Origin: a virus
Virus record (IMG/VR): IMGVR_UViG_3300037337_000038
Location: 1-27,669 of that record
Strand: one strand, 5' to 3'
DNA: 27,669 nt
The first letter of the stretch is position 1; every line of letters begins with the position of its first letter. The translations under genes were made by a program, and so were the position numbers. Below the pieces are notes generated by a model, which saw only the letters and a list, made by a program, of their open reading frames with translations, was not told the DNA's origin and searched no databases. Shown here in pieces: positions 2,039 to 15,659 of this stretch.

Positions 2039-2297
2039 GGCTGCCTTGCGCCGTCTCACCAGCAAAATCAGCCTTGATAAAGCCAAAAGCGGTAATCGCC
2101 GTCAGGTCTTCAACGTCTTCCCAAACAGGCGCAATAACCACGCCGTCGTAACCCGGCTGGCCGTAGCCTTCGGGCCGCACGGCGGTGTCTTGCTGCTGCG
2201 TCATCGAGCCGCGCAGGCGCTGCATGAATGCGGCGTGTGCTGGCGTGCCTGCAATGGCGTCCAGATCGGCGCGGGTGTTAATGACAGTGGATTGCAT
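2031..2297 (-). CDS. Conserved small phage protein of the tail-fibre region, function unknown
   Basis: An 88-residue acidic soluble protein. It contains INTRADLDAIAGTPAHAAFM and a later YGQPGYDG...PVWEDVEDL segment, a pattern that seems familiar from small proteins downstream of tail-fibre genes in other phages (from memory, unverified). The ATG has GGAG eight bases upstream. Its start overlaps the end of the reverse transcriptase gene by 20 bases and its stop overlaps the next gene, so it is in the same leftward operon. A tail-fibre assembly or cargo role is possible but unproven. Confidence 0.7.
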   Translation of the reverse strand: MQSTVINTRADLDAIAGTPAHAAFMQRLRGSMTQQQDTAVRPEGYGQPGYDGVVIAPVWEDVEDLTAITAFGFIKADFAGETAQGSHV

Positions 2298-3264
2298 GTT
2301 GTTTCTCCAAGTGGTTAAAGAGGTTGCACGTGTCGGCGTGGGCTGCGTGGCCCTTCCAAGACGCTAAAAATCGGGTCAAGCCGTCTTCGTCGCCAAGCCG
2401 CTTGAGGCGGGCGATCTTGCGTTTGGCGGTGGTCACGGATTGCTTGCGCAGCAGCTTGTGGCGCGGCCAAATGCGGTAGCCCAAGAAGTTGATGCCCCGC
2501 TGAATGGGCGCTACATGCCAATGGCTGATGCGCATACCCAGCCGGTCTAGGCTGAACTGCTGAATGTCCTCAAACCAGTCGCGCAGCTCGTAGGGGTTGC
2601 TGGACAAAATCACGATGTCGTCCATGTAGCGTGTCCACTCTTTTGCGCCCAGTTTGAAGTGAATGAATCGGTCGGTTTCGCCGCCGTAGACGTTGGCAAA
2701 GAGCTGGCTTGTCAGGCTACCGATGGGCAGGCCAAAGCCGGTGCGCGGCACCATGGCGGCAATCAGCTCATTGGTGGCGCGGCATGATATTTTGCGGTCG
2801 ATGAGTTCATGCAACACAGCGAGGTTGACGCTGGGGAAAAACTTGCTGTAATCCGTTTTGAGAAAATGCGTAGCCCCCGTGCGCCGAAGACCCGACTGCA
2901 CATGCCGCACCCCCGCATGCGTGCCCATGCCGGGGCGGCAGGCGTAAGTGCCTGGTAGCAAGGTTCTTTCAAAAATGGGGCCGATGACATTGACAAGCGC
3001 GTGTTGAGCCAGCCGGTCTTTGAAGTCGAGTGCTGAGATAAGACGCGCTTTTGGCTCATAAACGGTGAACTGGCGGTACTCGCCCTGCACCCATGCGCCG
3101 CTCAAGATTTCGTCACGCAACAGGCGTAGATTGGACTCGGCATACTCTTTGAATTCGAGGTAGCCCCACGTCATGCGCTTGGCGCGCGCGGTGTTGGCAT
3201 ACGCTAAGCGCAGGTTGTCGATGTCGGCCACTTGCTCGATCAATTGCTTGTACTTTTTACCCAT
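2278..3264 (-). CDS. Diversity-generating retroelement reverse transcriptase
   Basis: A 328-residue reverse transcriptase of the DGR group. Visible motifs, numbered from the ATG at 3264: the palm motif with catalytic aspartate (KTDYSKFFPS, 136-145), the DGR-typical LPIGSLTSQ (179-187), where group II intron and retroviral enzymes have a different sequence, YMDD catalytic box (213-216) and a thumb-proximal FLGYRIWP (260-267). There is no maturase, endonuclease or RNase H domain; the length suits DGR enzymes such as Brt of BPP-1 (about 330). It would copy the TR RNA into cDNA with errors at adenines, working with Avd. ATG at 3264 is preferred over TTG at 3279; GGGGG precedes it. It lies 176 bases downstream of TR. 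Confidence 0.95.
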   Translation of the reverse strand: MGKKYKQLIEQVADIDNLRLAYANTARAKRMTWGYLEFKEYAESNLRLLRDEILSGAWVQGEYRQFTVYEPKARLISALDFKDRLAQHALVNVIGPIFERTLLPGTYACRPGMGTHAGVRHVQSGLRRTGATHFLKTDYSKFFPSVNLAVLHELIDRKISCRATNELIAAMVPRTGFGLPIGSLTSQLFANVYGGETDRFIHFKLGAKEWTRYMDDIVILSSNPYELRDWFEDIQQFSLDRLGMRISHWHVAPIQRGINFLGYRIWPRHKLLRKQSVTTAKRKIARLKRLGDEDGLTRFLASWKGHAAHADTCNLFNHLEKQHAIHCH

Positions 3265-3560
3265 GGCACACCCCCACAAAGCCGGACACGACTTTCACCC
3301 GCTTGCGCTGGCTACTCGTCGTTTTTCCGAACCCCCAAAGGTGTTTGCCGAAGCAGGACCACACGGCTGACCACATATAAGTTGGCCGGCCTGCCAAGCC
3401 GTGGCATTGGCAGAGCGCTTTAAATACCGATTCAATGTCCTCACAGACGCCGCGAGCAGAGATGTTGCTGTTCGAGTTCGTGGGCGAGTTGTTCCAGTTC
3501 GAGCAGCGGGAACCGGAGTTCGCGCCATTGTCCCAGTTGCCCCCGAATAGCACGGCGTTG
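3265..3560 (-). ncRNA. DGR template RNA: TR plus spacer to the RT gene
   Basis: Between the avd stop and the RT start are 296 bases without a credible protein gene: the 119-bp template repeat followed by a 176-base spacer. In BPP-1 the TR RNA, with flanking avd and spacer sequence, is the substrate bound by RT-Avd for cDNA priming, and the spacer here is of comparable size. The reading frame that runs through it translates TR in the VR frame but has no ribosome-binding site or sensible protein beyond it. RNA ends cannot be set from sequence. Confidence 0.8.
3441..3559 (-). repeat. DGR template repeat (TR)
   Basis: It aligns without gaps to 4000-4118 (offset 559), with 109 of 119 positions identical. 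All ten differences fall on T of the plus strand, that is A of the template in coding sense (3466, 3472, 3477, 3478, 3492, 3498, 3499, 3520, 3531, 3538). The template codons involved are seven AAC and one GAC, the codon type favoured in DGR templates since A changes at the first two positions reach many residues. The repeat starts right after the avd stop codon (TAA at 3561-3563). Confidence 0.96.
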
Positions 3561-3941
3561 TTACCCATGTGGCCCCCTGCGTTTGTGCTGTTGCACCCAA
3601 GCGCCAAGCATGCGCCCCACCTCGGCGATCAGCGTCTGCGCTGTCTCGACTTGGTGAGAGGTGATGCCCTTGACCTGGCTGCCCAGCAAAAACCGCAGCC
3701 AAAATCGCAGATGGGCCAAGCCCGCGTCTGCGACGTAAAGGCGGGATACTTGATTGGACTTGCCCGCCTCTACAAACAGTTGAACCTGACCCAGCAGGCA
3801 TTGCAAAAACATATCACGCACAACGCCATGCTTGCGCGGCAGGCTTTGGGCAATCGGGTAGAGGTAAGAGATCACGGTCTCGTACTTCTCCACAATGGCC
3901 ATTTGCGCGTAGCTTTGGGCAGCGTCTTTGTCTGGGGTCAT
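3561..3941 (-). CDS. avd: Avd, DGR accessory variability determinant
   Basis: A 126-residue, mostly helical protein with a basic C-terminal end (QQHKRRGPHG). Its size, predicted helices (about residues 15-30, 38-60, 68-90 and 95-118), basic surface character and position between the variable gene and TR match Avd, the barrel-forming four-helix-bundle protein that partners the DGR reverse transcriptase and binds TR RNA. ATG at 3941 lies 40 bases after the fibre stop; only a weak AAAGCG precedes it. The stop TAA directly abuts TR. Primary sequence of Avd proteins is variable, so the call leans on context as well as on the overall pattern. Confidence 0.88.
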   Translation of the reverse strand: MTPDKDAAQSYAQMAIVEKYETVISYLYPIAQSLPRKHGVVRDMFLQCLLGQVQLFVEAGKSNQVSRLYVADAGLAHLRFWLRFLLGSQVKGITSHQVETAQTLIAEVGRMLGAWVQQHKRRGPHG

Positions 3942-3964
3942 GGTTCGCTTTAAAAAAAGAATCC

Positions 3965-3980
3965 GCAGGCTTTCGCCCGC
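3965..3980 (-). promoter_or_regulatory. DGR target-site hairpin (GAAA tetraloop) after VR; possible terminator
   Basis: On the coding strand GCGGGC-GAAA-GCCTGC makes a six-pair stem (one G-T) with a GAAA loop, directly after the fibre stop codon and 19 bases beyond the end of VR. BPP-1 has a hairpin or cruciform with a short GRNA-type loop just past its VR that increases retrohoming. A run of seven T follows six bases later (3952-3958), so the same element could also terminate the fibre transcript. Confidence 0.72.
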
Positions 3981-5279
3981 TCAGTCAAGAATCAGGTGGT
4001 CACAGACGCCGCGAGCAGAGATGTGGCTGTACGAGAGCGTGGGCGAGTTGGTCCAGGCCGAGCAGCGGGAACCGGAGTCCGCGCCATTGACCCAGTAGCC
4101 CCCGAATAGCACGGCGTTTTCCATCTGATACGTCGAGCCGCGCCCACCGGTGTTGGCCGTCCAAGCTGCACCCGCTGCGCCGCCACCAAAGTTAGACCCC
4201 CATACCCACAAGTTGCCGCTGGCCAGCATGACGCCGTAGCGGCTGGTGTAGGCCGCACGCAAGATGGTCGAGCCGGGGTCAGTGCCACCAGAAGATGCCT
4301 CAGTCGTGCCGTAAGCCAGCGCCGCAAACTCGCCGTAGTCGGGCAGGCGCTTGCCGTAGCTCATCAACACCTCAGCCGCCTCCCAGCGATTGAGCGAGCC
4401 ATAGGCGCTGCTGCCGTTGCCGCCAAACTTGACGGGTATCTTGGGCGGGGATGACCCGTCAGCAATCGTCACGTTGTATTTGCTGGTGCCATTGGTCAGG
4501 TGGTCAACACCCAACAGGTAAATGTCCGACCAAAAGCCATCAGCCACCAGTGTCATACCGCGCGGGTCAGTGCAGGCCGGGCGAAACTTCAAGTCCCACA
4601 AGCTGTATTCGTTGATGGCCGGGGTGGTGTTGCCACCCGCTTGCGCAGCCGCATTGCCGCCTGGCGCGTAGTGAAAACCGCCGATCTTGCGGCTGTTGGC
4701 TGTGGTGTAGCCCGACGGTGCGCTGAAGTTGGCATCGGCGCGGATGGTGCCGTCAGTTGCCGCGTAGATTGCATAGTCGGTGCCCGTGGTGAGCGTTGGC
4801 ATCACTACTGCTGTGGCGGTGGCGAAGGTGAGTTGGGTGCCAAGTACATCTACGCGAGTGCCGGCTTTAATCGAGACTGTGCCAGCGCCTGTTTTGGTAA
4901 AGGCTACTGAGCTGGCGTCGGCTTTAAAAAACAGCCCTGCGCCGCCGCTATTTGCAGCGATTGCATCTTTAATCAGGGCGGGCGACATACTGCGCAAAGC
5001 CGCCTCAGCACCTGCCTGCATTTCAGGCGTCGTTGCTACAGGGCCGGACGCTGAGGGCAAGCCGGTGGCTAAATTCAAAATATTTACCCAAGCGCTGTTG
5101 GCCGCATTGCGTTGCTTTAATATGCCTGCCGTGGTGTCTGGCCACCACATGTACGGGAAGGCGGTAGCGGGTGCTGTGCTGCCGCTGTTGTTGGTAACGG
5201 CTGCACCCAGCGCTAGGTTTAGGTCGGCGCGAAAAGGCGCACCTGCCGCGTTTGCAATGTCGTAATCGTGTTGAGCCAT
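3981..5279 (-). CDS. DGR variable protein: tail fibre with C-type-lectin-fold tip
   Basis: A 432-residue fibre protein. The N-terminus (MAQHDYDIANAAGAPFRADL, later WWPDTT...LKQRNAANSAWV) resembles phage tail-fibre attachment regions. Residues about 240-432 look like the formylglycine-generating-enzyme/C-type lectin fold used by DGR targets: RWEAAEVLMSYGKRLPDYGE echoes the family's GkrLPTEAEWE signature, followed by GNLWVWGSN and the terminal GSRCS...ARGVCDH motif. The last part is VR, so the variable residues should line the receptor-binding surface, as in Mtd of BPP-1. AGGAAAG nine bases before ATG is a good ribosome-binding site. It follows the J-like tail-tip gene, suiting a receptor-binding protein. 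The receptor is unknown. Confidence 0.93.
   Translation of the reverse strand: MAQHDYDIANAAGAPFRADLNLALGAAVTNNSGSTAPATAFPYMWWPDTTAGILKQRNAANSAWVNILNLATGLPSASGPVATTPEMQAGAEAALRSMSPALIKDAIAANSGGAGLFFKADASSVAFTKTGAGTVSIKAGTRVDVLGTQLTFATATAVVMPTLTTGTDYAIYAATDGTIRADANFSAPSGYTTANSRKIGGFHYAPGGNAAAQAGGNTTPAINEYSLWDLKFRPACTDPRGMTLVADGFWSDIYLLGVDHLTNGTSKYNVTIADGSSPPKIPVKFGGNGSSAYGSLNRWEAAEVLMSYGKRLPDYGEFAALAYGTTEASSGGTDPGSTILRAAYTSRYGVMLASGNLWVWGSNFGGGAAGAAWTANTGGRGSTYQMENAVLFGGYWVNGADSGSRCSAWTNSPTLSYSHISARGVCDHLILD
4000..4118 (-). repeat. DGR variable repeat (VR)
   Basis: The diversified copy of TR, covering residues 388-427 of the tail-fibre protein. Relative to TR, coding-sense changes are A to T, C or G only. 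Residue changes in order are Asn-Tyr, Asp-Val, Asn-Asp, Asn-Ala, Asn-Thr, Asn-Leu, Asn-Tyr and Asn-His. The 25 bases at the coding-sense 3' end are unchanged and GC-rich (GCTCGCGGCGTCTG), as expected of the initiation-of-mutagenic-homing segment. Sequence identity stops at 4000, after which VR and TR diverge. Confidence 0.96.
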
Positions 5280-7892: not shown

Positions 7893-8342
7893 TTAGCCGA
7901 TCCTCCACGCGTGAGTAAAGCCTGCGTGTTCCAGCGGCACATGCGCTAGGCCTTGCGGCTGCAGCGCCGCGCCACTAGCGCCTAAGCACACGCCTAGGTG
8001 CTCTCCATCGGCGTCGGTGTAAATCAAAACGTCGCCGCGCCGGGCCAGCAGCGGCAATACGCTGGAGGCGCCAAGCGTGACGTCAACTGCATCGGCCAGC
8101 GTGGGTGCCATGGCGGCAATGGTGCGCAGCTTTTGCAATGTCGTGGTGTAGCCTGCAAAACGTGGCCACAAGTCCACACCCGTAACCGCAGCCACGCAGG
8201 AGCAGCTAAAAGTTAAACAGTCATGCTGGCCCAGCCGGTAGGGTTGGTGCTGGGCGCTGGCCACCACGGCGGCCAGGCGTTCGGGCCAGTCGTGCAGCCT
8301 TGTCATGAGCGGTGCGGGCGTTTGCGTGATGGGCGTTTGCAT
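7893..8342 (-). CDS. NlpC/P60-like tail-tip peptidase (gpK-like, DUF6950-like)
   Basis: A 149-residue protein with a QHDCLTFSCS motif (Cys about residue 42, in the place of the NlpC/P60 DC nucleophile) and a later GEHLGVCLG that could supply the histidine. It precedes the J-like gene, where lambda-like phages encode gpK, a tail-tip murein peptidase domain. It may help assemble the tail tip or open murein at DNA entry. Start: ATG at 8342 forms TGATG with the upstream stop; the TTG one codon earlier is unlikely. Family assignment is by motif and position, not by search. Confidence 0.72.
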   Translation of the reverse strand: MQTPITQTPAPLMTRLHDWPERLAAVVASAQHQPYRLGQHDCLTFSCSCVAAVTGVDLWPRFAGYTTTLQKLRTIAAMAPTLADAVDVTLGASSVLPLLARRGDVLIYTDADGEHLGVCLGASGAALQPQGLAHVPLEHAGFTHAWRIG

Positions 8343-8896
8343 CAATAACCCCAGCGCAAGTTTTTTTCAGCCATCTGCGGCACAAAGTCAAAGCCTTTGT
8401 CGGTGGGGTCGGTTTGTGCCTGGTCGGCGCTGTTGTAGCGGCGCACCCGAGGCCGGTCCCAGTCCGCCAGGCGGCTTTCGGCGCTGACGGTGATGGTGCC
8501 GGTTGCGCCCAGCTCGATGTCCATCGTGTCCATGCGGCCGCTAAACAGCAGCACCGGGTCGGGCACCACGGCGTGGCCGTCTGTCAGCGGTGCAAACCAT
8601 ACCTTGACGCTGCGGCCCTGGTACTGCTGGCCCAAGGCAATGCTGATGTTGGCCGCGTCCACACCGGTCAAGGTAAAGCGCAAGCTGCGCGCCTCCAAGG
8701 TCATGCCCTCGCCAACCGGCTCAATGCCGCCAACGCGGCCAATGCCGATCCAGTCAAAGCCGTTCCAGGGCAGCGTCACGGCGCTGTTGTTGCAGCGTAA
8801 AAAGCCGCTGGCAAAGTCCATCTCGACAAACGCCACGCCCAGCACGCGGCCATCAGCAACGGCGTTTTGGGCGGCAGTGGTGAGGGTGCGCGGCAT
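8342..8896 (-). CDS. Minor tail protein, DUF2163-like, in the gpL position
   Basis: A 184-residue protein rich in beta-strand patterns. Segments such as VAFVEMDFASGFLRCNNSA, LRFTLTGVD and VKVWFAPL...LLFSGRMDTMDIE are typical of tail-tip proteins annotated as DUF2163 or baseplate-hub-like (the repeated phrase 'sGrid' type strand). It lies between a Dit-like gene and the NlpC/P60-like gene, the place of lambda gpL. It should be part of the tail-tip ring that seats the J-like hub. Its ATG overlaps the previous stop by one base and its stop overlaps the next ATG as TGATG, so it is translationally coupled on both sides. Confidence 0.7.
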   Translation of the reverse strand: MPRTLTTAAQNAVADGRVLGVAFVEMDFASGFLRCNNSAVTLPWNGFDWIGIGRVGGIEPVGEGMTLEARSLRFTLTGVDAANISIALGQQYQGRSVKVWFAPLTDGHAVVPDPVLLFSGRMDTMDIELGATGTITVSAESRLADWDRPRVRRYNSADQAQTDPTDKGFDFVPQMAEKNLRWGY

Positions 8897-9501
8897 TAAA
8901 AGGCCTCCGTAGCGGCGAGGCTGAAGCTGTCAAGGCTGGGCGCGCGAGTCGTCCAGCGGCTGGCGTCTTCGTCGAGCATAAAAGTGGCCAGGGGCCGCGT
9001 GGTGCTAATGACGGCGTTGTCGCCCGGGCTGGCCCGCATCGGTGGCTCAAAGCTCAGCGTGGCCTCGCCTGCGCCGTTGCTGGCCGCGTCTGCCGCCAAC
9101 AACTTGAGCTCGCCATTGACGCCGATGTAGTCACCGGCCAGCAAAATGCCTGCCGTGCTGGGTGTCCAGCCGTCAGTGACTATGGTGGTGCCGGCTTGCG
9201 CTGCGCCGTTGACCCGTGGCGTGCCTGTGGCCACGCCGCGCACAGCCTTGACGCCAAGCGGCCAGACGGTAAAGCGGTTGCTGCGGCCACGCAGTTGGGC
9301 CAAAAACGTGCGCATGGCGGCGGCGTCAGCCTCGCTCAGGCTGTCAAAGCTGCAACTAAAACGCCAGCGTGCGCCGGGCATTTCCAGCGTTTGCACAGAC
9401 TGATTCAAAGGGCTGGCAAAGGTTTGGGTATTGCTGATCAGCGCCCACTCTAGCGAGCTGGGCGCGGCGCGGCTCAACGTCGGCCAAGCAAAGGTGGTCA
9501 T
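8896..9501 (-). CDS. Minor tail protein, distal-tail-like
   Basis: A 201-residue protein directly after the tape measure gene, where tailed phages encode the first tail-tip ring protein (lambda gpM, siphophage Dit). The N-terminal half (FASPLNQSVQTLEMPGARW, then LSEADAAAMRTFLAQLRGRSNRF) is a recognisable pattern of phage proteins in this position; the C-terminal half (AGDYIGVNGELKLL) looks like a beta domain. No enzymatic motif is seen. ATGA overlap with the tape measure stop indicates coupled translation. A tail-tip structural role is likely from position and fold impression; the exact family is not certain. Confidence 0.7.
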   Translation of the reverse strand: MTTFAWPTLSRAAPSSLEWALISNTQTFASPLNQSVQTLEMPGARWRFSCSFDSLSEADAAAMRTFLAQLRGRSNRFTVWPLGVKAVRGVATGTPRVNGAAQAGTTIVTDGWTPSTAGILLAGDYIGVNGELKLLAADAASNGAGEATLSFEPPMRASPGDNAVISTTRPLATFMLDEDASRWTTRAPSLDSFSLAATEAF

Positions 9502-11585
9502 GCAAAGACCCCGCCGGCGCGGCTGCTGCGCAATATTTCGGCCTTGGCCAGGTCAGCGGCGGTGCGCATGGCGGCCATGATGCTGGCCTGGTCGCTGCGG
9601 CTGTCAATGTTGATGTTTTGGATGATGGTGACGCCGCTGCCCGCCGACTGACCGCGTGCCAGGTCAATGACCCTTTCTTGCGGGTGCAAGATAGCCGGGA
9701 AACCGCCCTGACCGTCAACCCCGCCGATGCGCGGGCCATTGCCCGTGCTACCGCCACCGGCAAAACTGAAGTCTTTAAACAAGTTGCTGAAAAAGTTGCC
9801 AACGCCAGACTTGCTCGCGTCGCCGATGGCGTTGGCAAAAGGTTCGGTGACTTGCTTGCGCACAATGATGCGGGCAATGTCTTTGCCAATACCGTCTAGC
9901 ACGTCGCGCAAGCCTTTGCCGTTGACAATTGCGTCTTCAAACGCACTGCTGAAGGTCAGGCCAAGTTCTTCTGCAAAGTCTTTGGCTTTTTCGGTTTTTT
10001 CGGCCACCAAGTCAAGGCGGGAGGTGACGGCTTGTAGGTACTGCTCTTGGTTGATACCGGCCGCGCCTGCAGTGTCAATAAAGCGCTGATACTCGTCAGT
10101 CAACAGTGCAACGTCGGCGCGTTGCTTTTCAAGGATCGCGCTGGGTGTGGCGTCTAGCAGCGTCTTGAGGCGGGCCTGGTAGGCCTCATTGGCTTTGTTG
10201 ACAGCATCGCCTTCTTGCATCGCCAGGTCGCGGCCCATTTTGACGCGCTCTTCACTGGCCGACGCGGTTTGTTTGATCAGGTCCAGCTCAGTGGCCAGCG
10301 CTTGCAGCTTGGCCTGCTGCACCGGGCTGACGGTGAGCCGGCCCTGTTGAATATCAGCCAGCAGCTGCTCAGTGGCGCTCAAATCTTGGGTTTTTTCAAT
10401 CTGCTTTTGCAGGTTGTCCATGAAGCGCTTGAAGTCGGCGTCGGGGTCTTTGCCGGCTGCGGCTGCGGCTGGAATGCCGGGCGCGCTTGGTTTCATCGCG
10501 GCTACTTGTGCGGCAACGCTGCCTGGGTCACCCAGCAGGCGTGAGTCTTTAAATTTGCGCGCCGACATTGTGCCGATGCCCAAAATGCGAGCCTGAAATT
10601 TTTCCAGCTCAATGCGGGCTAATTTAGAATCCTCTTGCACAGCTGAGCTGATGGCGTTGAATTTTTTGAAATCAAGCCTGGCGAGCGCTGCGTAACCTTC
10701 CGCAACACCGACGATTGCTTTGCCAACCTCCTGAAAAACAAAAATAAATTCTGAAACCACTACAGTGACGGTCTGAAAGACAAGAACCAACCCATTAATG
10801 GCCGCTTTGATCAAGAACGTGGTGGCCTCTATCAGCACTTGACTTTTGGAAAGCTCAACAAACTCGTCTGAAAGGTCATTAAGCGTGGGAAGCAACTCAG
10901 ACGCAGCAGTATTGGCCAGCCCCTTTATAGACGCTGTAATGCGGGTCAGGTTGTCGTTAAACTGCTCGGCCGCTTTGGCGGTTGTTGTGTCCAGAACAAG
11001 GCCGAGCTGGCGCGCCTCATCTGTCATCGCCTGCAGGCCGTCAGCGCCGCTGTTCAGAAGTGGTATAAGTTGCGCGCCAGACCGGCCAAAAATGTTGACA
11101 GCCAACGCGGTTTTTTCTGCACCATCTTTAAAGCCGGCAAATTTGTTGGCAATTTCAGTTAAAACCGCATCAGAGGCTTTCAGGGAGCCGTCAGAATTTT
11201 TGACGCTAATGCCCAGCGCGTTAAAGCCCTCAACGGCAATGCCAGTGCCGGCGGCTGCGTCTGACATGTTTTTGGTCATTTTGACCAGCGCTGAACCCAG
11301 CTCTTCGTTGCTGACGCCGGACAGATCGGCGGCAAAGGAAAGGGCCGACAGACTTTCAACCGTTGTGCCGGTTTGCTGTGCCAGCTTGGACATCTCGTCC
11401 ATCGCGTCAATTGAGGCTTTGACCAAATACACACTGGCTGCGGCCGCAGCCACAAATGCAACACCAATGGCCGCGCCCATTTTTTTGGCTTCTTTTTGCA
11501 GCGATTTGAAATTTCGCTCTGCCTCGTTAAAACCTCTGTCGGTGTCGTTTTGCGCGCTGATTTTGATTTTTACGTCGTTTGCCAT
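9498..11585 (-). CDS. Tail tape measure protein (gpH-like)
   Basis: A 695-residue, largely helical protein that sets tail length and is ejected with the DNA. The N-terminus (NDVKIKISAQNDTDRGFNEAERNFKSLQ) is typical of tape measures, followed by a hydrophobic Ala-rich stretch (about 37-55), a conserved TTVESLSALSFAADLSGVSNEE region and a second hydrophobic segment (about 264-300). A coiled-coil/Ala-Gln-rich middle leads to a Gly-rich C-terminus (FAGGGSTGNGPRIGGVDGQGG). It follows the G/T chaperone genes, as in lambda. At roughly 0.15 nm per residue the tail would be near 100 nm; this is an estimate from family behaviour, not a measurement. Confidence 0.9.
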   Translation of the reverse strand: MANDVKIKISAQNDTDRGFNEAERNFKSLQKEAKKMGAAIGVAFVAAAAASVYLVKASIDAMDEMSKLAQQTGTTVESLSALSFAADLSGVSNEELGSALVKMTKNMSDAAAGTGIAVEGFNALGISVKNSDGSLKASDAVLTEIANKFAGFKDGAEKTALAVNIFGRSGAQLIPLLNSGADGLQAMTDEARQLGLVLDTTTAKAAEQFNDNLTRITASIKGLANTAASELLPTLNDLSDEFVELSKSQVLIEATTFLIKAAINGLVLVFQTVTVVVSEFIFVFQEVGKAIVGVAEGYAALARLDFKKFNAISSAVQEDSKLARIELEKFQARILGIGTMSARKFKDSRLLGDPGSVAAQVAAMKPSAPGIPAAAAAGKDPDADFKRFMDNLQKQIEKTQDLSATEQLLADIQQGRLTVSPVQQAKLQALATELDLIKQTASASEERVKMGRDLAMQEGDAVNKANEAYQARLKTLLDATPSAILEKQRADVALLTDEYQRFIDTAGAAGINQEQYLQAVTSRLDLVAEKTEKAKDFAEELGLTFSSAFEDAIVNGKGLRDVLDGIGKDIARIIVRKQVTEPFANAIGDASKSGVGNFFSNLFKDFSFAGGGSTGNGPRIGGVDGQGGFPAILHPQERVIDLARGQSAGSGVTIIQNINIDSRSDQASIMAAMRTAADLAKAEILRSSRAGGVFA

Positions 11586-11587
11586 GT

Positions 11588-11938
11588 TTATTGCACCATT
11601 CCGGCCCGCTTGGCGCTGGCCATGATTTCTTCAATCGTTAAATCTTGCGGCTCGGGTGGGGTGTCGGCGCTGTCGGCCAGGTCTTGCCACAAAGCCGGCG
11701 CAAAGTCGTGTGGGGCCCACAGTCGGCCGCGCTCAGGGGCCTGCAGCGGCCCATTTGCCAACGCTGCCAGTACTGCACCCAAGCCAGCCCATTGCGCCGC
11801 TGGTATGGGCTCTTGGTTGTGCAGCGCGTAGTGCTGGCCAAACTCTTGCGCAGTCATGATTTGTCCCAAGTGCTGCACGCTGACTCCCATTTTTTGTGCC
11901 AGCCTGAGTGCAAACCGAAGCTCAGGCTGGCGGGCTAG
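11588..11938 (-). CDS. T part of the G-T tail chaperone, expressed by -1 frameshift
   Basis: This is the downstream half of a gpG/gpGT-type tail assembly chaperone. It is open from the slippery site at 11938-11944 to the stop at 11588, giving 116 residues after the shift, so the G-T fusion would be 237 residues. An ATG at 11890 would give a 100-residue free protein (MGVSVQHLGQ...), but it has no good ribosome-binding site and 16 in-frame codons precede it. The T domain of lambda contacts the tape measure and recruits tail tube subunits; the same is inferred here, since the tape measure gene is next. The sequence (FGQHYALHNQEPIP, then a Trp/Pro-rich part) resembles DUF4035-like T proteins. Confidence 0.85.
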   Translation of the reverse strand, partial: LARQPELRFALRLAQKMGVSVQHLGQIMTAQEFGQHYALHNQEPIPAAQWAGLGAVLAALANGPLQAPERGRLWAPHDFAPALWQDLADSADTPPEPQDLTIEEIMASAKRAGMVQ

Positions 11939-11944
11939 TTTTTT
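11898..11944 (-). promoter_or_regulatory. -1 programmed ribosomal frameshift signal (G/GT)
   Basis: In coding sense the G frame ends GCA AAA AAC TAG, giving the canonical heptamer A-AAA-AAC (11938-11944) immediately before the G stop. Six bases later comes a perfect 11-pair stem, GCCAGCCTGAG with CTCAGGCTGGC (11898-11908 and 11921-11931), around a 12-base loop. Slippage by -1 enters the T frame without interruption. Confidence 0.92.
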
Positions 11945-12300
11945 GCTGTGTCGGCCTGGCTAAAACCACTGATACGCCAAGCGACGTTAAAAAGTGCAAT
12001 CGCCTGATTGGCGTGTTTGGCGCCAAACACCTGCCATTGCTGCTGTGTAAACACCGGCTGGTCGTCAGCGTCAAGCACCGTCATGGCCAGCAAGACCGGC
12101 AGGACGGCGTGAACACCCGAGCGGTCAGATTCGCCATCAACAGATTTTTTAGGGGCGGCGGCAACAACGCTGGCTTGCAGGTCCAGGTACTCTGTCAGCA
12201 GCAGGCCGCGCACCACCACCTCGCCGCCCAGGGCTTCGACCTCAACCGTTTCTTTGGGCAGTACAGGGGTGGGTACGTCTTGGCGTTTGATAACAGCCAT
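11935..12300 (-). CDS. Tail assembly chaperone gpG-like
   Basis: A 121-residue protein between the tail tube and tape measure genes, the place of lambda gpG. It is an acidic-to-neutral helical protein with a beta-like start (PTPVLPKETVEVEALGGEVVVRGL). Together with the -1 frameshifted G-T form it would coat and hold the tape measure during tail assembly, the two forms being made in a fixed ratio. Its stop codon TAG follows the slippery heptamer directly, so most ribosomes end here. The start is ATG, six bases after the tail tube stop region, in the same operon. Confidence 0.88.
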   Translation of the reverse strand: MAVIKRQDVPTPVLPKETVEVEALGGEVVVRGLLLTEYLDLQASVVAAAPKKSVDGESDRSGVHAVLPVLLAMTVLDADDQPVFTQQQWQVFGAKHANQAIALFNVAWRISGFSQADTAKN

Positions 12301-12305
12301 GGCGT

Positions 12306-12950
12306 TTAGCTCGCGTAGGCGGTGATGGGACCCGTGAGGTTAAAACTGGTGGGTGTCGTCACCGCGCCGCCGGTTGAGCCACCAGGGGCCAGTAGCGCAC
12401 TGGGGTAGCAGTCAAAATAAACCTTGGCCCCGCTGGAAAACGTCAGACGGATAGACCGCGTGGCCTTGGCGCGTGAAGCCTTGGCCAGCTCAATGAGCGC
12501 CGCGTCCGAGGTGTCCCACAAGTTGCCAAAGCTGTAAGACAGCGCGCTGAAGGTGCCGGGGATTTGCTTTTCCGTGTCGTCGTGAATGGTGGTGACAGTG
12601 ATGGCTGCTGCTTCGCCGCCAGAGCTGTTGACGTCTTGAATGGTGGCCGCAGCTGCGCCAAAAGTGACCAGCTGCGCGTTGCCACTGGCAAAGGTGCCGT
12701 ACAAGGTGCTGTCCTCGCCTTTGAGCTCGTAAGTGCTGGTGGTGATGTTGGCCACTTCCACCACTTTGTTGTCAAGCTCGGACATGCCGGTCATGCCGGA
12801 CAGCTTGACCACTTGGCCATTGGTAAAGCCGTGGGCTGCCCGGGTGACCACTGCCGGGTTGGCCTTGGTGATGGACGTGATCGGTACGGCTGCAGCAAGA
12901 ACGGTTTGCACCGACACGCCGACTTTGGACCAGACATTGATAACAGGCAT
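12306..12950 (-). CDS. Major tail tube protein (gpV-like)
   Basis: A 214-residue protein with the features of siphophage tail tube subunits: an N-terminal VWSKVGVSVQTVL region, a central part that looks like an inserted beta domain (about residues 27-95, with AAHGFTNGQVVKLSGM), and a core strand-rich part with FSALSYSFGNLWDTSDAALIELAKASRAK. A final VTTPTSFNLTGPI segment is typical of tube proteins. The AAHGF-containing insert resembles small Ig-like or ubiquitin-like inserts seen in several phage virion proteins. AAGGAAATC before the ATG is a good ribosome-binding site, fitting a highly made structural protein. It sits between the U-like and G-like genes, as in lambda. Confidence 0.85.
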   Translation of the reverse strand: MPVINVWSKVGVSVQTVLAAAVPITSITKANPAVVTRAAHGFTNGQVVKLSGMTGMSELDNKVVEVANITTSTYELKGEDSTLYGTFASGNAQLVTFGAAAATIQDVNSSGGEAAAITVTTIHDDTEKQIPGTFSALSYSFGNLWDTSDAALIELAKASRAKATRSIRLTFSSGAKVYFDCYPSALLAPGGSTGGAVTTPTSFNLTGPITAYAS

Positions 12951-13730: not shown

Positions 13731-15572
13731 TTAAGCCGTCAATGCGTCGACCATGGTCGCGAACGACTCGATGTTGCGCACGGCCACGTCGACGTCTTGC
13801 AGGGCCACTACGCGCACCGTGCCGGCGGTGCTGCCGGTGTACGGGTCGACCATGATGTCCAGGCTGCCCCACATGCCAATCATCAGGTCTGCAAAGTTGC
13901 CAAACAGGATGGCCGAGCAAACGCCGCTGCTGGTGCCCTTGGTCAGGTTGCTGGGCACGGCGTTGGTGACGCCAACGTTGTAGCCGTTGATCGGCGTGCT
14001 GCCCAGGTCCCACACCGGCGCGCCGTTGGTGGAGGCAAACTTTTGCGTGGTTTTGAGCTTGCCGCGCATTTTGACGTTGGTCAAATAGCCCAGCGTGCCA
14101 ATGTCGGCATTGCCCACGGCAACGTTGGTTTCCAGGTCGATCATGTTGGGCCAAGTCGGTGCCAGGCCGTTGGTGCCGCCGATGACGGACGGTGTGATCA
14201 GCGTGAGCAGGCCAGACGGCTGGTTGCTGGCGCCGCTGCCGCTGATGGCGGCTTGCTGCACGGCCAGGCCGAGCACAGTGGCCAAGTCTTGGTTGACCAT
14301 GGCCTCAACGTCGATACTGGACTGCAGCGTCAGGCGGCGGCTGATGTCGGTAAACGCGCCAACCGTCTTGGGTGACATGGTGACTTGACCAACCGTCTGT
14401 TGGGACTCGGTGGGTGCGCCGTTTTCGGCCACCCAGTAGGCGGTGGCCGCGCCGGTCTGCTTGGGGATGGCGATCTGCCCCACCAGGCCGGTCAGCATGC
14501 GGGCACCCATGCGGTCAATCACCATGGCGTTTCGGAACAGGTCGATAAAGCTGCCGCTGAGCAGATCAGTGGCCACCAGGTTGCCGCCAGCGGTGGGCGT
14601 GCCGACCAACAAGTCGCGTTTTTGCACGTCGCTTGGCATAAAAAAGCCACGTGCCGCTTTGCCCATCTTGGTGGCTACAGCGCCAGAGGCCTCAAACTCA
14701 AACGCGGCGGCGCGCTGGGCAGCGGCGTCGCTGGGGTTGGCCAGGGCGTGGATGGCGCGCACCACGCTAAAGCGGCGGGTTTCGGCCGTGCTCATGCCGA
14801 TGTCGCTTGTGGGCACGGGCTTGGTGGACAGCGCACGAATGGCCTCGACCTGGAATTGCTCGACCGTGTGGCCGGCCTGGATGGACTTCATGGCCATCTC
14901 GGCACCGCCGGGCATAGTGGCGGCGATTTTGCTGATCTCGGCGGGGTGGTTGCGCTGAACTGGGGTTTCGATAACGGTAACGGTGGCTTCTGTGGTCATG
15001 GTTTTTTCCTGAAAAGTTGGGGGGGTAGGGAGCAAAGGGGCGGCGTCAGATGCCAGGCTGCGGCCTACACCGACGGATGCATCAGCGGGGACGCTGACAA
15101 GAGATACTTCAAACGGTTCCCAGTCGGTGACGCGGTAGGTTTCCACACCATCCGCTGTTTCGACCAGCACCGCTTTATGGACCATGTAGCCAACGGACAC
15201 GCTTCGGCGTATGCCGCCCAGCACGTCTTGCCACACTTCCTCTGCTCGGGCGCTTTTCCCAAAACGCACCACGGCACGGGCCACACGGTCCGCACCGATT
15301 TCTACAGATTCGACAACGCCCACCACGTCTTGCGTGTTGTGGTCGCATAACAGGTTGGCACCGCCACGCAAGCGCTTGCTGCGCATGGCGCTGGCGGTGC
15401 AATCTAAAATTTCTATGCCCCAGTAGCGCTCGTAAGCCAGCTCGCTGGCAAATGCCAGGGTGGCGGTGCGGGCGGCCTCGTCAATTGCATTGCGCTCGAC
15501 AGCAAAGGCGCGCTCAACACGGCCACCGGCAATGTGGCGGGCCAGATTTGGGGGGATGTGCGGTTGGGGCAT
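13731..15572 (-). CDS. Fused prohead protease and HK97-fold major capsid protein
   Basis: A 613-residue polyprotein. Residues about 15-180 look like an HK97-type prohead protease (LLCDHN with candidate catalytic His, GIRRSVSVGY with candidate Ser, WEPFEVSLVSVPAD near the end). A Pro-rich linker (PLLPTPPTF) is followed by a delta-domain-like helical part (about 192-280) and the HK97 capsid fold (about 320-613, with TAGGNLVATDLL, IPKQTGAATAYWVAENG, ISRRLTLQSSIDVEAMV, VALQDVDVAVRN). ATG at 15572 is chosen because homology-like sequence begins there; no clear ribosome-binding site precedes it. An ATG at 14999 has a strong site and would give the 422-residue capsid part alone. Confidence 0.9.
   Translation of the reverse strand: MPQPHIPPNLARHIAGGRVERAFAVERNAIDEAARTATLAFASELAYERYWGIEILDCTASAMRSKRLRGGANLLCDHNTQDVVGVVESVEIGADRVARAVVRFGKSARAEEVWQDVLGGIRRSVSVGYMVHKAVLVETADGVETYRVTDWEPFEVSLVSVPADASVGVGRSLASDAAPLLPTPPTFQEKTMTTEATVTVIETPVQRNHPAEISKIAATMPGGAEMAMKSIQAGHTVEQFQVEAIRALSTKPVPTSDIGMSTAETRRFSVVRAIHALANPSDAAAQRAAAFEFEASGAVATKMGKAARGFFMPSDVQKRDLLVGTPTAGGNLVATDLLSGSFIDLFRNAMVIDRMGARMLTGLVGQIAIPKQTGAATAYWVAENGAPTESQQTVGQVTMSPKTVGAFTDISRRLTLQSSIDVEAMVNQDLATVLGLAVQQAAISGSGASNQPSGLLTLITPSVIGGTNGLAPTWPNMIDLETNVAVGNADIGTLGYLTNVKMRGKLKTTQKFASTNGAPVWDLGSTPINGYNVGVTNAVPSNLTKGTSSGVCSAILFGNFADLMIGMWGSLDIMVDPYTGSTAGTVRVVALQDVDVAVRNIESFATMVDALTA
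14997..15010 (-). promoter_or_regulatory. Internal ribosome-binding site and ATG for free capsid protein
   Basis: Within the protease-capsid reading frame the coding strand reads AGGAAAAAACCATG, a strong Shine-Dalgarno at good spacing from the in-frame ATG at 14997-14999 (residue 192). It lies exactly at the domain border after the Pro-rich linker. It decides a second start giving a 422-residue capsid precursor. Confidence 0.75.
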
Positions 15573-15593
15573 GCCGCTACTGTCGCGGCGGTA

Positions 15594-15623
15594 GTGTCTT
15601 GTTTTCAAGGCAAAAGACAAGAC
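15594..15623 (-). repeat. 30-bp dyad element, copy 1, upstream of the capsid gene
   Basis: Identical over 30 bp to 19983-20012. In coding sense it contains arms GTCTTGT and ACAAGAC around an inner TTT/AAA pairing with one bulged base. Its end lies 21 bases before the protease-capsid ATG. A run of repeated GCGCAAAAAA-type sequence (15626-15658) lies just upstream, between it and the previous gene. Confidence 0.85.
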
Positions 15624-15659
15624 ACGGCGCAACTTTTTTGCGCGTGTTTTTTTTGCGCT

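Follow-up and report, generated by a model that had tools for sequence, protein, structure and literature searches.

The locus examined here raises the question of how the tail protein encoded between the tail tube and tape measure genes of a phage is made, and in particular whether its second part, T, is translated as a gene of its own or is reached by ribosomes that change frame at the end of gene G. The window, meaning the whole stretch of 27,669 nucleotides (27.7 kb) of IMG/VR record IMGVR_UViG_3300037337_000038, is a tailed-phage fragment catalogued as a virus record. Following the analyses below, we consider it very probable that two forms of the tail assembly chaperone, G and GT, arise through a programmed -1 ribosomal frameshift.

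The G and T frames and their neighbourhood

The minus-strand gene order includes terminase, portal, protease-capsid, head closure, tail terminator, tail tube, G, T, tape measure and distal tail protein genes, with the G/T pair flanked by the tail tube and tape measure genes. The features concerned are as follows.

12306..12950, minus strand: tail tube (major tail) protein, directly upstream of G (phrog_584, E 1.9e-38; PF08813, E 1.3e-20)
11935..12300, minus strand: gene G, tail assembly chaperone, 121 aa, ending ...TAKN-stop (phrog_344, E 1.4e-10; tail tube and tape measure neighbours)
11588..11938, minus strand: T frame (-1), 116 codons and a stop after the slip, predicted GT fusion of 237 aa (phrog_337, tail protein, E 3.5e-5)
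11588..11890, minus strand: ATG-bounded ORF of 100 aa from the ORF list, the likely T of an annotator, with no Shine-Dalgarno motif found before it
9498..11585, minus strand: tape measure protein, 695 aa, directly downstream of T (phrog_8462, E 1.5e-69)

G belongs to a tail assembly chaperone family by its match to phrog_344, and a Pfam search with G gave no family above the cut-off. The T domain falls in the minor tail protein T family, through phrog_337 for the T of the window and through the Pfam family Minor tail protein T (PF06223) for its relatives; PF06223 hits were obtained for 10 of 19 aligned family members (best 3.6e-18), and the window's own T protein had no match in that search. 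When the predicted 237-aa fusion was compared with phrog_14766, a PHROG tail family, residues 25-168 were aligned; the aligned part spans the junction (121/122), and the spacing in the profile is nearly the same. This alignment suggests that continuous products are already known among relatives.

Two other features of the fragment were observed. At 13731-15632 (minus strand) a single 633-aa frame encodes a fusion of prohead protease (PF04586) with major capsid protein (PF05065), and a diversity-generating retroelement (DGR) lies at 2278-5279 (minus strand), with repeats that differ at 10 positions, all of them template A bases (10/10). Its parts are:

2278-3279, minus strand: DGR reverse transcriptase (PF00078)
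3281-3416, minus strand: Phage_DGR RNA (Rfam)
3441-3559, minus strand: DGR template repeat
4000-4118, minus strand: DGR variable repeat, at the end of the Mtd-like gene
3981-5279, minus strand: Mtd-like gene

A slippery heptamer and a perfect stem at the end of G

Sequence comparison establishes the site, the frame, the stem and the identity of the genes. Across the site the minus strand reads GCC GAC ACA GC[A AAA AAC] TAG CCC GCCAGCCTGAG cttcggtttgca CTCAGGCTGGC, with the heptamer in brackets, and is divided as follows.

11944-11938, minus strand: slippery heptamer A_AAA_AAC, the final two sense codons of G
11937-11935, minus strand: G stop TAG, abutting the heptamer and forming the first 3 nt of the spacer
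11937-11932, minus strand: spacer TAGCCC, 6 nt from heptamer to stem
11898..11931, minus strand: stimulatory stem-loop, arms 11931-11921 and 11908-11898, 11/11 complementary, loop of 12 nt

The heptamer is of the X_XXY_YYZ type in the zero frame of G, placed at the 3' end of this gene with T in the shifted frame, and the stem is conserved and starts within the 5-9 nt usual for a stimulatory structure. The first-pass annotation had described A-AAA-AAC immediately 5' of the G stop, the stop itself in the spacer directly after the heptamer, and a perfect 11-pair stem six bases downstream, all of which are borne out by the letters above. As it had also stated, the -1 frame runs into the T frame; it reads ...TAKN-LARQPELRF... 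and remains open as far as 11588. Its expectation that automated annotation would call T as a separate 100-residue gene agrees with our finding that the ATG-bounded ORF is the sole start-bounded one in that frame.

The hairpin of the site is the only perfect one with 11 bp and a loop of 3-15 nt in the window, where order-1 simulations predicted 0.15; in the same simulations the chance of such a hairpin beginning 4-9 nt past a given point was about 3e-5. The 58-nt segment at the site has a folding energy of -24 kcal/mol (z -2.86 versus shuffles). An Rfam search gave no match at the frameshift site.

Only two in-frame A_AAA_AAC heptamers were found among the genes of the window. The other, at 8366-8360 (minus strand), lies 18 nt before the stop of ORF 8342-8896, and the -1 frame there is open into the next gene. 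We rejected it as a frameshift site because it is absent in distant relatives, a close relative has AAA AAT in its place, and the gene downstream, which overlaps, has its own start.

Conservation among relatives

Relatives were gathered by IMG/VR searches with G and with T. The last T search used the motif M-[TS]-x-x-E-F, which is well downstream of the slip site, and this search consequently did not select for the heptamer. In every IMG/VR relative in which both genes were matched, T was in the -1 frame of G. The heptamer was found at a constant place in 81 distinct T loci, 63 of them below 85% identity; among the distinct T loci checked, one (L128) showed no slippery heptamer, and another (L084), with only a short G frame upstream, is a doubtful member. 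The 63 sites carry A_AAA_AAC (50), A_AAA_AAA (6), A_AAA_AAG (4) or G_GGA_AAC (3). In 46 of them the heptamer runs straight into the G stop, which is at +3 in 5 others and 15-60 nt off in 12, so that a stop directly after the heptamer is the rule in this family and not peculiar to this phage. In one sub-lineage (L020-L023, L030, L033-L035) the G stop is 21 nt past the heptamer and the stem is a different one (GCCCC/GGGGC); stop position and stem have thus changed together.

Four relatives (L126, L048, L119 and L026) have a -1-frame stop directly 5' of the heptamer, and the fusion could therefore be made only at or just after the heptamer. In a fifth, L074, the -1 frame is likewise open from the heptamer only, but the contig begins there. 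In the window the -1 frame opens just 15 nt 5' of the heptamer and contains no start codon before the ATG at 11890, and the T residues coded 5' of this ATG rank among the most conserved of T. In 14 close relatives the T frame here has 13 of 25 residues invariant and no stops, versus 6 invariant residues in each of the other frames, which do contain stops. T residues coded after the heptamer but ahead of the first start codon are conserved, and frameshifting is the only way to reach them.

The stem is conserved as well. Pairing is kept in 95.5% of stem cells across 12 close relatives, compensatory changes occur at two stem pairs (U-A/G-C and G-C/C-G), and the covariation score was reached by no shuffle. 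A minority of relatives have no clear stem. Together with the family matches and the synteny, the 63 distinct relatives support the reading of G/GT as a -1 frameshift that the first-pass annotation had proposed.

Alternative explanations

T could be a separate gene, translated by re-initiation at the ATG at 11890 past the G stop, the heptamer and stem being incidental. In favour of this, a T-frame ATG 44 nt past the G stop opens the 100-aa ORF. However, only 13 of 63 relatives have ATG at that place as their first start codon, and in 59 of 63 a Shine-Dalgarno motif is lacking ahead of the first T-frame start. It would also leave unexplained the 16 T residues 5' of the ATG (LARQPELRFALRLAQK in the window) that are conserved among relatives, and the alignment of the fusion with phrog_14766 over the junction, and we regard a separately started T as very unlikely. 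Even less credible is a change of frame by RNA polymerase, rather than the ribosome, slipping on the A run. The site does have six A in a row, but this is a short run for transcriptional slippage; moreover, the X_XXY_YYZ register is kept in relatives, three of which have G_GGA_AAC and no long homopolymer, and a covarying stem downstream at the usual spacing suits ribosomal slippage.

The hairpin might also be a by-product of a conserved peptide, RQPELRFALRLA, with complementary codons, in which case the heptamer would act without a stimulator. This peptide is indeed strongly conserved in close relatives, but when the T peptide of the window was recoded at random with synonymous codons, less than 1% of trials reached the fold of the window and about 0.2% gave a stem of 11 bp, the stem of the window being stronger than such recoding predicts (z about -2.8 to -3). 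Folding exceeded the same null in most of the 63 relatives, with a mean z of -2.25 and 36 of them at or below about -2, although these sequences are related and the tests are not independent. The alignment also shows that the U-A to G-C pair swap leaves the encoded residues unchanged on either side (CCT/CCG and AGG/CGG). We therefore think it very improbable that the stem is a coding by-product, and we retain programmed ribosomal frameshifting as the explanation of this locus.

Proposed mechanism and known systems

In the proposed mechanism most ribosomes would make G (121 aa) and halt at UAG. A minority would be delayed by the hairpin of 11 bp that lies 6 nt ahead; their tRNAs, first paired with AAA and AAC, would shift to AAA AAA, and reading would go on in the -1 frame to give the 237-aa GT, a product that we infer from the reading frames. 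By analogy with lambda, G may coat the tape measure protein, while tail tube subunits may be recruited by the T domain. The slippage, its rate and these chaperone roles are those expected from homologous phages in which they have been tested. The general mechanism and role of G/GT have been reviewed (PMC5009743), and in an HK97-like chaperone cluster two tested sites gave 6 and 7% frameshifting (PMC3711429).

Tblastn of the window's G and T, and of the G of two relatives, against isolated phages gave no match, nor did the G alignment retrieve a relative from bacterial genome contigs. The T of one relative matched 143 records of isolated phages, including HK97 gp13/gp14 and Burkholderia phages KS9 and Bcep176. 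HK97 shares the order tail tube, G, GT, tape measure and the -1 shift, its gp14 record reading 'translated due to a -1 frameshift', and the T domain is detectably related to gp14 through intermediate sequences. No X_XXY_YYZ heptamer was found near the HK97 G stop, which implies a slip site of another type. KS9 gp11/gp12 and Bcep176 69/69', the latter named in its annotation as lambda G and T equivalents, are annotated as two-piece joined products and have A_AAA_AAA and A_AAA_AAG as their sites, but there the G stop is 33 nt past the heptamer and not directly after it as in the window. Phage lambda resembles the window in arrangement, direction and inferred role, and Pfam Minor tail protein T is matched by relatives of the window's T. 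The lambda heptamer is G_GGA_AAG, in contrast to A_AAA_AAC in the window.

Published sets have the stop farther away on average, at 26 nt for SEA-PHAGES and 36 nt for the Xu set (PMC10885494). The stop-adjacent heptamer is a lineage trait that is already precedented, as AAAAAAC immediately 5' of the stop of the chaperone gene has been described in Acinetobacter phage Loki (PMC5313236). Loki gp12/gp13 and IME_AB3 are likened to our locus by description, and the description considered here mentions no stem.

Heptamer, stem and the G:GT ratio

In Escherichia coli the heptamer A_AAA_AAC has a low efficiency, whereas A_AAA_AAG is strong (PMC4066793), and given this low efficiency the frameshift rate in the host of this phage could be low. 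The stop in the spacer may plausibly tune the G:GT ratio. The four A_AAA_AAG representatives, two of them a similar pair, have a mean stem energy of -13.6 kcal/mol, versus -23.5 kcal/mol for A_AAA_AAC; the link of this heptamer with a weak stem has p 0.004 by energy and p 0.10 by z-score, with n=4 representatives and p values that ignore relatedness. Downstream folding is weak or average in L025, L026 and L119, which carry A_AAA_AAG. This hints, from few and related sequences, that heptamer and stem are balanced against each other. Perhaps, and we offer this tentatively as a possibility below even chance, this wide, mostly uncultured lineage combines a strong stem with a weak heptamer (A_AAA_AAC or G_GGA_AAC) to which the zero-frame stop is fused, its members with the stronger A_AAA_AAG having weaker stems, so that heptamer, stem and termination at the stop are co-tuned for one G:GT ratio.

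Significance

The site is a real, conserved and ordinary programmed frameshift of a known kind, in an arrangement well known from tailed phages. Recognising it gives the correct reading of a recoded gene, which ORF callers would break in two and shorten, and assigns this gene to a large family of mostly environmental phages sharing the same signal. The 63 diverged natural sites, in which the stop is mostly fixed and the stems and heptamers are variable, would form a useful series for learning how each of these elements sets the frameshift rate.
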